In this document: in pieces, positions 2,249 through 41,536 of the stretch
How positions within the stretch are numbered: the first letter of the stretch is position 1
Layout: each line of letters opens with the position of its first letter
Source: a virus
DNA: 41,536 nucleotides
IMG/VR virus record: IMGVR_UViG_3300043331_000516
Coordinates: 1-41,536 of that record
Strand: one strand, 5' to 3'
Notes under the pieces: model-generated
Seen by the model: the letters and a program-made list of their open reading frames with translations, nothing else
The model's database searches: none
Told to the model about the DNA's origin: nothing
Translations under genes and position numbers: made by a program

Positions 2249-2272
2249 GCCCTCCTGAGTTTTGTGGAGGGC
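2249..2272 (+). other. Hairpin overlapping a leader ribosome-binding site
   Basis: GCCCTCC (2249..2255) pairs with GGAGGGC (2266..2272) around a 10-base loop. The right arm is itself the Shine-Dalgarno sequence for a GTG at 2277, so folding would hide that ribosome-binding site. This is the geometry of a translational switch; no ligand or protein is known. Confidence 0.45.
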
Positions 2273-2276
2273 TGCC

Positions 2277-2321
2277 GTGTTTCAAGATCCCGCCGCGCCA
2301 TGCCGAGGAACCAGGGCATGA
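2277..2321 (+). CDS. Possible 14-aa leader peptide
   Basis: GTG at 2277 has an excellent SD (GGAGGG, 5 bases away). It opens a 14-codon ORF (MFQDPAAPCRGTRA) whose TGA overlaps the ATG of the initiator gene at 2318 (ATGA). The initiator's own SD is weak, so translation of the leader may feed the initiator by coupling. Its short length makes this tentative. Confidence 0.4.
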   Translation: MFQDPAAPCRGTRA

Positions 2322-3226
2322 GCGTCTACGGCTACACCTTCGGCCGCGTGCCCGATGCCCTGCTGTTCTCCGGCACCGACCGGGCGTGCCGCCTCTACGC
2401 CATCCTGACCCGCTGGGCCGACCTTCGGCCCCACGACCACCCAACCCGGGGCGAGCTGGCCGGACTCCTAGGCTGCTCGGTCGACACCGTTGACCGGACC
2501 AAGGAGGAGCTGGTCGACGGAACGTTCCTTGAGGTGAAACCCCAATACATCGGGGCTACCAAGCTCCGGGACGCGAACGACTGGCACCTCCTCCCGGGTC
2601 CGGAGATGCGCGGAGACCCGTTTGGGTATGGCCGCACCCATGCGGCCACCATCACCAGCGGAAACGACGAAACCGCAGGTCAAGATGGCCGCACCCATGC
2701 GGCCACCGCTGACCAGGGCAAACGCGAAACCGCAGGTCAAGATGGCCGCACCCATGCGGCCACTTCCTATAGAAAGAATAAAACCCTAGAGGGAAAGAAA
2801 GAGTCGGCCGGAAAATCGGCCGACGGCGCCCAGCCCCGACGCGGACGGCCGAAGGTCGAACCCTCGGCCGAGGCATGGGAGCTGGCACACCACCTCGCCG
2901 ACACCATCGCCGAACGTACCCCCGAGGTTGGCCGCCCGAACGTCACCCCGACGTGGGCGCTGGACATGGACAAGCTCCTCCGGCTCGGGGTCGTCGGCTA
3001 CAGCCAAGGGTTCAAGCCGGAGCAGGTTCGCTGGCTGATCGACTGGCTCGCCGCCGGGGAGTGCCGCGACGCGCTGTTCTGGCGCCGGAATGTCCGCAGC
3101 CCAGCCAAGCTCCGGGTTCACGCCGCTGAGCTTATCGAGGCCGCCCAGACGAACTACCAGGGCGTAAGCGGTCGGCCCTCGGTCGCCTCCGTCATCCGCG
3201 CCTCCATCGCCAAGGAGGTGGGCTGA
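2318..3226 (+). CDS. Phage replication initiator (winged-HTH, DnaD/O-like)
   Basis: This 302-aa protein has an N-terminal winged-helix region (about residues 10-95; RLYAILTRWADL, then GELAGLLGCSVDTVDRTKEEL as the recognition-helix unit) typical of phage replication initiators. A low-complexity linker (about 103-175) holds three 19-residue repeats beginning GRTHAAT. A C-terminal domain (about 185-290) probably contacts helicase-loading partners. Known relatives bind origin DNA and recruit the helicase loader; the next gene fits that role. The start at 2318 is chosen because homologous sequence begins near MSVYGYTFGRV. Alternative starts are 2264 and 2300. The linker DNA itself looks like the origin. 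Confidence 0.8.
   Translation: MSVYGYTFGRVPDALLFSGTDRACRLYAILTRWADLRPHDHPTRGELAGLLGCSVDTVDRTKEELVDGTFLEVKPQYIGATKLRDANDWHLLPGPEMRGDPFGYGRTHAATITSGNDETAGQDGRTHAATADQGKRETAGQDGRTHAATSYRKNKTLEGKKESAGKSADGAQPRRGRPKVEPSAEAWELAHHLADTIAERTPEVGRPNVTPTWALDMDKLLRLGVVGYSQGFKPEQVRWLIDWLAAGECRDALFWRRNVRSPAKLRVHAAELIEAAQTNYQGVSGRPSVASVIRASIAKEVG
2629..2805. other. Candidate replication origin: three 57-bp iterons plus AT-rich tract
   Basis: TGGCCGCACCCATGCGGCCA, itself an 8-bp/4-bp-loop dyad, occurs three times at exactly 57-bp steps (2629, 2686, 2743) inside the initiator gene. It is followed at 2763..2805 by an unusually A-rich stretch (CCTATAGAAAGAATAAAACC, then GGGAAAGAAAG) that would melt easily. This copies the lambda O-gene layout, in which iterons and an AT-rich segment lie within the initiator's own coding sequence. 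Function is inferred from layout. Confidence 0.65.
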
Positions 3227-3966
3227 TGGACCGCGCCCAGGCCAAGGCCATCGCCGGGGCGCTACTCCTCCAGTTCGCCGGCAACCGCAACCCCGAAGAC
3301 GTCGAGCTTCTGATGGAGCGATACGCCGACCACCTGGAGGAGTTCGACTACGGCCCCGCCGAGCTGGCCGTCCGCAAGCTGGAGGCCACGGCGACGTTCC
3401 TCCCCCGGATCGCCGAGGTGCGACAGGCCATCCTCGATGTGACCCACCCGGCCCCGGAGATCCCCGACGCCGACGAGGCATGGGGCGAAGTGCTGGAGGA
3501 GATCCGCCGGGTCGGATGGATGGGCACCCCGATGCTGTCCCCGCTGGTGCGGGAGACGGTGCGGAACCTCGCCCCCGACTGGCAAGCCGTCTGCGCGGGG
3601 AACCCGGACTTCCTCCGGCCGAACTTCCTCCGGCTGTACGAGACCTGCCTAAAACGCCAGCAGCGGGAGCGGAACCTGCTCGCCCTCCCGGCCGATGTTC
3701 GGGAAGCACTCACCCCGCCGCTACCGATCCCACGCGCCGCGCTGGAGCCACCACCACCCCGGGAACCGGCCGAGCTGGTCGGGGCACCGCCAGAGTTCAG
3801 CAAGGCCATCGGCGCCATCGGCCGCTCAAGTGACGAGCCGAGCGAGCCGATAGAGGTGATCGAGGCCCGCCGCGCCGCATCGGTCTTCATCGTCCAGCAA
3901 CTCGCAAAGCAGATCGAGGAAGAGCGCGGGGAGGTGGCCGATGGCAGTGCCGCGGGAGGTTCCTGA
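3226..3966 (+). CDS. Putative replicative helicase loader
   Basis: This 246-aa protein follows the initiator with a 1-base TGATG overlap. Its N-terminal 70 residues (FLPRIAEVRQAILD region) resemble the small helical domain of phage G39P-type helicase loaders/inhibitors. The central segment AWGEVLEEIRRVGWMGTPMLSPLVRETVRNL with FLRLYETCLKRQQRE (about residues 85-150) is characteristic of phage proteins found beside DnaD-like initiators. The C-terminal part is Pro-rich and then helical. The likely role is delivery of host DnaB to the origin. No helicase gene of its own is visible in the window. Family assignment rests on motif recollection and context. Confidence 0.6.
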   Translation: MDRAQAKAIAGALLLQFAGNRNPEDVELLMERYADHLEEFDYGPAELAVRKLEATATFLPRIAEVRQAILDVTHPAPEIPDADEAWGEVLEEIRRVGWMGTPMLSPLVRETVRNLAPDWQAVCAGNPDFLRPNFLRLYETCLKRQQRERNLLALPADVREALTPPLPIPRAALEPPPPREPAELVGAPPEFSKAIGAIGRSSDEPSEPIEVIEARRAASVFIVQQLAKQIEEERGEVADGSAAGGS

Positions 3967-5279: not shown

Positions 5280-5434
5280 CCGCGGGTCCGATCGAGCAGC
5301 ACATCGAGGGATGGCTTCCCGACCTGGCCGAACCGGTGGAGCTCCCCGACCCGGCGTGGACACGGGCACCGGTACGGGTCAAGGAGAAGCCGAGGGTGGA
5401 TGCCAAGACACGCAAGAAGCGCAGACGGCGATGA
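5276..5434 (+). CDS. Hypothetical 52-aa protein with basic tail
   Basis: The SD is GGAGGGGGAGCA before ATG 5276. The product has an acidic, Pro-rich first half (GWLPDLAEPVELPDP) and a strongly basic C-terminus (KEKPR...KTRKKRRRR), suggesting nucleic-acid contact. The stop overlaps the methyltransferase start (ATGA), so the two are translationally coupled. Confidence 0.6.
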   Translation: MTAGPIEQHIEGWLPDLAEPVELPDPAWTRAPVRVKEKPRVDAKTRKKRRRR

Positions 5435-6078
5435 CTAGGCCCCGGCTCCTCGACCTGTTCTGCGGGGCAGGTGGCGCCGGCATGGGCTACCACCAAGCCG
5501 GGTTCGAGGTCGTCGGGGTGGACATCGCTCCGCAGCCGCACTACCCGTTCGAGTTCCACCAGGCTGATGCGCTCGAGTATCCCCTCGAGGGGTTCGACGT
5601 CATCCACGCTAGTGCTCCCTGCCAGCGGTTCACCGCCTACGGGCGTCGAAAGGGCATCGACCGCGAACGACACCTGAACCTGATCCCCGCCACCAGGGCT
5701 CGACTCCAAGCGAGCGGGCTGCCGTACGTCCTTGAGAACGTGGAAGGTGCTCCACTCAACAGCCCTATCCGGCTCTGCGGCACCAGCTTCGGCCCTGACC
5801 TGCAACGACACCGGCTGTTCGAGAGCAACATCCCACTGGCCGGTCGTCCTTGCGACCACGGCCGCAACACCTCGCGCTGGCCGATGGCTACCAACCGGCA
5901 GAACAAGCGCCGCACCATCGAGGTTGGGGTGTACCGCATCCCCCTATCTGACCAGCAGCGAGCTATGGGCATTGGCTGGATGACTCTTGAGGAGCTCAGC
6001 CAGGCTATCCCGCCCGCCTACACCCGCTTCCTCGGCGAGCAGCTCCTCCAGCATGTCGGTGCCGTGACCAGATCGTGA
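5431..6078 (+). CDS. DNA (cytosine-5) methyltransferase, compact
   Basis: The 215-aa product carries C5-methyltransferase motifs in order: I (LLDLFCGAGGAGMG, residues 6-19, SAM binding), IV (SAPCQRF, the Cys nucleophile), VI (LENVEG), VIII-like (LQRHRLFESN) and X (IPPAYTRFLGEQLL). It methylates cytosine in phage DNA, most likely to evade host restriction; no cognate endonuclease is nearby. It is much shorter than bacterial enzymes (300+ aa), so the target-recognition region is minimal. The start at 5431 is coupled to the previous gene; an in-frame upstream extension to 5311 would only overlap that gene. Confidence 0.88.
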   Translation: MTRPRLLDLFCGAGGAGMGYHQAGFEVVGVDIAPQPHYPFEFHQADALEYPLEGFDVIHASAPCQRFTAYGRRKGIDRERHLNLIPATRARLQASGLPYVLENVEGAPLNSPIRLCGTSFGPDLQRHRLFESNIPLAGRPCDHGRNTSRWPMATNRQNKRRTIEVGVYRIPLSDQQRAMGIGWMTLEELSQAIPPAYTRFLGEQLLQHVGAVTRS

Positions 6079-41356: not shown

Positions 41357-41505
41357 CAGAGCCTCCCGAATATCGGTGCGGCAGCCTTATCGGTACAAGG
41401 ACCACAACGAGTCTGGTTCTGCCCGATCAGCGGCCCGCCCGGGTACAGCTCGGGGCCAATCTCGAATGGTGCTTCGCAGTCTTCGCATTCACGTTGCTCA
41501 GTCAT
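41356..41505 (-). CDS. CxxC...CxxC protein, 49 aa (complete copy across the circular join)
   Basis: AACGGAGGACGAC precedes ATG 41505. The product has CEDCEAPFEIGPEL and CGPCTDKA, a two-knuckle zinc ribbon. In the circular form it lies directly downstream of the Phd-like gene and is coupled to the 97-aa gene. Its 5' part is repeated at 1..66. Confidence 0.75.
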   Translation of the reverse strand: MTEQRECEDCEAPFEIGPELYPGGPLIGQNQTRCGPCTDKAAAPIFGRL

Positions 41506-41536
41506 GTCGTCCTCCGTTTCGGTGTCGCTTCCGGCC
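41440..41536. repeat. Right copy of 97-bp terminal direct repeat
   Basis: Identical to 1..97; see that entry. Confidence 0.97.

Follow-up and report, generated by a model that had tools for sequence, protein, structure and literature searches.

Replication origins that lie within the gene of their own initiator have been established in phage lambda (PMC7466680), in oriL of the Bacillus phage SPP1 (PMC6316719) and in the lactococcal phages TP901-1 and Tuc2009 (PMC8965321). In lambda, as well as in the Stx phages, dyad iterons occupy the middle of the initiator gene O, an AT-rich tract follows directly on their 3' side, and the loader gene comes next (PMC7466680). SPP1 features repeats and an AT-rich element inside gene 38 (oriL), and a loader of the G39P type belongs to that module (gp38, gp39, gp40; PMC6316719). 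In TP901-1 (ORF13) and Tuc2009 (Rep2009), repeats bound by the replisome organizer within its own gene were shown to be the origin (PMC8965321). Among phages of actinobacteria, the RepA replicons of the mycobacteriophages Miko, Rachaly and Jeeves have been described: in Miko, repA with 171 bp of upstream sequence suffices and the origin is suspected either within repA or upstream of it; no repeated motifs were detected by the authors in the regions under study (PMC7157519).

The DNA analysed here, referred to as the window, is a virus sequence of 41,536 bases (IMG/VR record IMGVR_UViG_3300043331_000516). Its positions 2629-2815 very probably represent a phage replication origin of the lambda/SPP1/TP901-1 type inside an initiator gene, a reading to which we assign a probability of roughly 0.8. 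It is based on the position of the AT peak, the constraint on the DNA, the half-sites and the spacer found in the linkers of relatives, the Asp of the recognition helix, the O-like C-terminal domain, the neighbouring loader-like gene, and the arrays of three relatives of the C-terminal domain (L087, L093 and L094). Points against it are the 57-bp spacing of the sites, a GC skew that is uninformative for the position of an origin in the window (block shuffle p 0.24), and an AT maximum away from the array in three relatives with GCCGCA sites (L224, L227 and L230). The features concerned are the following.

2264-3226, plus strand: replication initiator ORF (320 aa from GTG 2264)
2333-2600, plus strand: N-terminal winged-helix domain, HTH_36-like (weak Pfam HTH_36 match, 0.11; relatives; alignments A5 and A9)
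2474-2515, plus strand: predicted recognition helix CSVDTVDRTKEELV with Asp at position 4 (association of Asp with GCCGCA-enriched linkers)
2629-2648, no strand: dyad (iteron) 1, TGGCCGCACCCATGCGGCCA, perfect copy
2686-2705, no strand: dyad (iteron) 2, TGGCCGCACCCATGCGGCCA, identical to dyad 1
2743-2762, no strand: dyad (iteron) 3, TGGCCGCACCCATGCGGCCA, identical to dyad 1
2762-2815, plus strand: A-rich, purine-rich tract, candidate DNA-unwinding element (best 40-mer 2762-2801)
2803-2824, no strand: additional dyad with a sequence of its own, GTCGGCCGGAAAATCGGCCGAC (chance expectation, one such match)
2870-3151, plus strand: C-terminal domain, O/DnaD-like, W..D....FW..N..S..KLR (profile A6 against lambda O; alignments A1 and A2)
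3226-3966, plus strand: probable G39P-type helicase loader, overlapping the initiator by 1 nt (phrog_9804, 6e-24)

An earlier, sequence-only reading of this DNA had likened the locus to the lambda origin inside O, and the likeness holds for the position within the gene and for the AT-rich tract. The array lies, as had been proposed, between the winged helix (about aa 24-112) and the C-terminal domain (about aa 203-296). It is directly followed by the A-rich tract noted at the time, whose 40-mer at 2762-2801 is the most AT-rich of the whole 41.5-kb window (65% AT, against 33% for the initiator gene) and begins at the final base of dyad 3; lambda O, taken as a positive control, has the AT maximum of the gene beginning 3 bp past iteron 4. 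The likeness does not extend to the 57-bp step, which is peculiar to this phage, the lambda-type spacing of about 20-24 bp being found in most relatives (mostly 22-24 bp). Where lambda has four iterons at 20-24 bp, the window has three at 57 bp; its N-terminal domain is HTH_36-like and gave no match to Phage_rep_O (PF04492) at E<=1, whereas lambda O itself matched at 5.7e-36; and its loader resembles G39P. Iteron spacing is a variable detail of lambda-type in-gene origins rather than a requirement, because SPP1 and TP901-1 differ too. The initiator-loader gene order is that of lambda O-P and of SPP1 gp38 and gp39 (PMC6316719). SPP1 has a second origin, oriR, whereas the dyad-pattern scan revealed no second array in the window; the likeness to SPP1 is one of arrangement and of the loader. 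TP901-1 and Tuc2009, which have a different host, are likened by arrangement, and the mycobacteriophage RepA proteins only as helix-turn-helix initiators of actinobacterial phages. This kind of in-gene origin is already known, and the candidate presented here would join it.

The initiator (P0001) is likelier to start at ATG 2318, to judge from a GAGGA sequence 8 nt upstream, than at GTG 2264. It matches phrog_2514 (DnaD-like helicase loader, 1.2e-6), phrog_270 (replication initiation, 4.8e-6) and phrog_4880 (replisome organizer, 1.3e-5), and its match on its own to O-like families is weak (phrog_391, 7.6e-4). A profile (A6) built from 14 relatives with the initiator at their head aligned with the C-terminal region of lambda O with an hhalign probability of 96.9 (E 1.6e-10), which indicates that the two C-terminal domains are related. 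In the N-terminal domains of relatives, HTH_36 is matched at 5e-6 to 6e-4, as against 0.11 in the window protein. A pattern scan with the single sequence detected no close relatives of the initiator in viral_contigs and none in plasmids. The downstream gene probably encodes a helicase loader of the G39P type: the two closest relatives of its product are recognised by PF11417 (Inhibitor_G39P, best 4.4e-12), the product itself having no Pfam match, and it aligns with the annotated loader of Bacillus phage 022DV001 (hhalign E 4.6e-6). No replicative helicase gene was identified among the subset of window ORFs that was scanned.

From the dyads, the AT peak, the domain relationships, the gene order, the conservation of sites and their covariation with the recognition helix, all read from sequence, we infer binding, dimerisation, melting, helicase loading and origin activity. 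The winged helix of the initiator would bind the three GGCCGCA-N4-TGCGGCC dyads, probably as one dimer per dyad; the bound array would then open the adjacent A-rich tract (2762-2815); and the O/DnaD-like C-terminal domain, together with the neighbouring G39P-like loader, would bring in the host replicative helicase. On the minus strand, the further dyad at 2803-2824 and the A-tract look like an intrinsic terminator for leftward transcription, which could halt such transcription into the candidate origin.

Each 20-bp dyad is built as TGGCCGCA-CCCA-TGCGGCCA, and among the tandem repeats in the window the array scores highest (TRF 228; runner-up 68). Its three copies, reported earlier as standing at exact 57-bp steps, were recovered as perfect copies starting at 2629, 2686 and 2743 (57 + 57 bp), and are the only perfect matches to the dyad pattern in the window (five matches with up to three mismatches, against 0.54 expected in shuffles). 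The array keeps to the reading frame of the ORF, 57 nt corresponding to 19 codons, with GRTHAAT in each unit. Hence the protein repeats of 19 aa that had been described are correct as to length and frame, but only the 7-8 aa over the dyad are common to all three units (units 2 and 3 have 39 nt in common). Units 1 and 2 are identical at 23 of 23 bases in the core and at 11 of 34 outside it; dyads with a common half-site appeared in 0 of 200 synonymous-codon shuffles of the initiator gene; and the probability of a palindrome in register, given the GRTHAA peptide and the phage's own codon usage, is about 0.007 per copy. These values indicate that the conservation of the repeats exceeds chance and that the constraint acts on the DNA.

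The N-terminal domain has relatives in five genes of actinobacterial chromosomes, all five with GGCCGCA sites in the linker; these encode GR[TS]xAAT or, in a different frame, VAAxxRP, which argues that the conserved item is the DNA and not the encoded peptide. The idea that protein linker and origin evolved together therefore needs to be recast: the half-site is kept in the linker, but with the DNA coming first, since the codon frames of the relatives differ. One N-domain relative is a prophage gene with capsid, portal and terminase genes nearby (L130), another lies near a relaxase gene (L126), and the chromosomal L125, L126 and L128 are possibly parts of integrated elements.

A profile search with the N-terminal domain yielded 134 viral contigs (80 fetched) and 12 genomes, and the family set comprised 58 nonredundant genes, the window included, in which enrichment was judged against synonymous shuffles. 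Linkers enriched in GCCGCA were found in 15 of the 58. In the recognition helix, position 4 is Asp in 13 genes of this enriched set of 15, compared with 3 of the 43 others (Fisher p 1.6e-8, uncorrected, like all the family statistics, for relatedness, L228 and L229 being 91% identical, or for GC content), and two of the three Asp genes outside the enriched set contain a near-match dyad with the same spacer. Genes with Lys at this position often have GCGTCAC/GTGACGC sites instead, which in L190 follow each other at 22-23 bp steps in changing codon frames. In the GCCGCA genes, a 4-base spacer (GCCGCA-N4-TGCGGC) separates the arms of 45 of 47 dyads, with freely varying loop sequences; the starts of GCCGCA fall in codon phases 1 (29), 0 (16) and 2 (2); and dyads are mostly spaced by 22-24 bp, or else by values near 47 or 66, so that the 57 bp of the window is an outlier. 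Site density amounts to 16.6 per kb in linkers and 1.6 per kb in the remainder of the genes. In 14 of 17 genes, where 2.2 would be expected, the AT maximum falls between -20 and +80 bp from the last dyad. Given the same linker half-site in relatives and the association of Asp with GCCGCA, each protein of the family probably binds sites inside its own gene. A scan of viral_contigs for two adjacent GGCCGCA dyads found none, probably because it demanded perfect 7-bp arms and gaps of 20-50 bp. Repeated 7-mers exceed the synonymous null in 19 of the 58 N-domain genes, and arrays in the other 39 are degenerate, short or undetected, so that the in-gene array is not a universal rule in this family. 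The same winged helix and sites are joined to at least three kinds of C-terminal domain. As a separate observation, the C-termini of L125, L126 and L128, on the same winged helix and dyads, share a conserved domain (RSPMRLAEAGPWW...TRATV.RRA) with no Pfam match.

Three relatives identified through the C-terminal domain carry, at the same position of the gene, dyads unrelated to those of the window: AAACCCCGCAGATCCTGCGGGGTTT in L093, GGGTGCAG-N3-CTGCACCC (five) in L094 and CCGGCAGATTCTGCCGG in L087. A local AT maximum follows the array in all three (3/3), the arrays of L093 and L094 are supported by synonymous shuffles, and in both L093 and L087 one dyad is read in two frames. At 2203-2423 of L093, within an initiator gene from another phage, AAACCCCGCAGATCCTGCGGGGTTT occurs in at least three complete copies and several incomplete ones, in two frames, and parts of this array can form very long hairpins. 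Initiators of Streptomyces and Gordonia phages with a different N-terminal domain have direct repeats of 7 or 8 bp (GGAACAGGG-type) in the linker, as short tandem arrays that replace the dyads (L106, L107 and L109 from Gordonia; L068-L071 from Streptomyces), with an additional 23-nt repeat (AGTTTGTTGCAAG...) at 30 bp spacing in the Gordonia phages L106 and L109. Arthrobacter phage initiators, several of them annotated as RepA-like, mostly display further kinds of linker repeats. Repeats within the gene are thus a common feature of actinophage initiators, although some of the genes examined do not show them; cultured relatives that have them include the Arthrobacter phages Kovu and Laroye and the Gordonia phage Smoothie.

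The dyads might also be sites to which the protein binds in another role, as an autorepression operator or in partition/handcuffing, with the origin elsewhere. Sites in several N-domain relatives without a visible O/DnaD-like, helicase-recruiting domain (e.g. L199, L228 and L202) are in keeping with such a role, as is the match of phrog_16198, a 'transcriptional repressor', to the N-terminal domains of L128, L130 and L134. For the window, however, we regard it as unlikely, given that the sites lie in the middle of the gene and not at a promoter, that the AT maximum sits beside the sites in most of the genes with such dyads (14/17), and that the window protein does possess an O/DnaD-like C-terminal domain. 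Autoregulation and origin function are compatible and not exclusive. In the site-bearing relatives without a recognisable O/DnaD-like C-terminal domain the sites could thus have another use, and it is for these that a pure operator or partition role is least improbable. Less likely still is an origin upstream of the gene, in the long inverted repeat at 1926-2053, with the in-gene array being secondary. This element, located between the upstream gene and the initiator (near-perfect over 1918-2061, with 24 exact bases and 36-nt arms that are 89% complementary, and degenerate CGACA-type repeats on both sides), is the sole perfect inverted repeat of the window with arms of at least 18 bp; its transcript would fold much more stably than shuffled sequences (z -8.1), and RNA-based origins are known in mycobacteriophages (PMC7157519). 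Yet no copy of it was found in viral_contigs, and no such long inverted repeat is present near the initiators of the eight N-domain and two C-domain relatives examined (the long repeats of L093 being its own dyads), while the array inside the gene is found again in relatives. A hairpin of this strength would also fit a terminator or a regulatory RNA.

Two other explanations look beyond DNA-binding sites, to the mRNA and to the protein, and both appear exceedingly improbable. Each dyad could form an RNA hairpin with an 8-bp stem and a 4-nt loop, which would control translation or transcription; but the combination of constant arms, freely varying loops and helix covariation speaks against it, as the arm sequence itself, beyond its pairing, is conserved in divergent genes and changes with the recognition helix. 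A repeat at the protein level, i.e. a flexible linker with codons that are palindromic by accident, would agree with the common frame and the GRTHAAT peptide of the three window copies, but hardly with the low per-copy probability given above, and it is disfavoured by the changing codon frames, relatives reading the same dyad as GRTxAAT and as VAAxxRP.

With the in-gene origin as the preferred reading, what is new is a sequence-based case for in-gene sites in an actinobacterial winged-helix family, with an N4 dyad conserved across codon frames, a correlation between recognition residue and site, and at least three kinds of C-terminal domain on the same helix and sites. In the papers searched, which cover the literature incompletely, no description of in-gene sites of this winged-helix family was found. 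We give even odds to a broader proposal, namely that winged helix, matching iterons and AT-rich opener form a portable 'self-origin' segment that has been joined to different C-terminal domains (O/DnaD-like, YPRK-TWLN-type and TRSPMRLAEAGPWW-type) across actinobacterial phages, prophages and integrated elements, with a short code (Asp: GCCGCA; Lys: GCGTCAC) by which the origin could be read from the protein. To our knowledge, most phages of actinobacteria have no mapped replication origin. The residue-to-site correlation would predict a candidate origin from the initiator protein, the candidate sites make the question of the origin testable with short DNA fragments, and such origins could yield small replicons for actinobacterial genetics.

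As for the phage itself, positions 1-98 of the window equal 41439-41536 (first 60 bases compared by script, the rest by eye), and this end repeat of about 98 bp makes it probable that the contig represents the whole genome, some 41.4 kb long. The terminase relatives of the window are phages of actinobacteria, and the host and life style of the virus are deduced from relatives alone. A search of 33 phage records related through the terminase, fragments among them, did not recover the initiator; the replication module has therefore probably been exchanged. Promoter and Rfam searches gave no match. A small ORF on the minus strand (98-343) resembles, by eye, a Phd/YefM-type antitoxin. Two DNA methyltransferase genes are present at 5311-6078 and 13905-14711, one of the C-5 cytosine type and one of the phrog_359 type.
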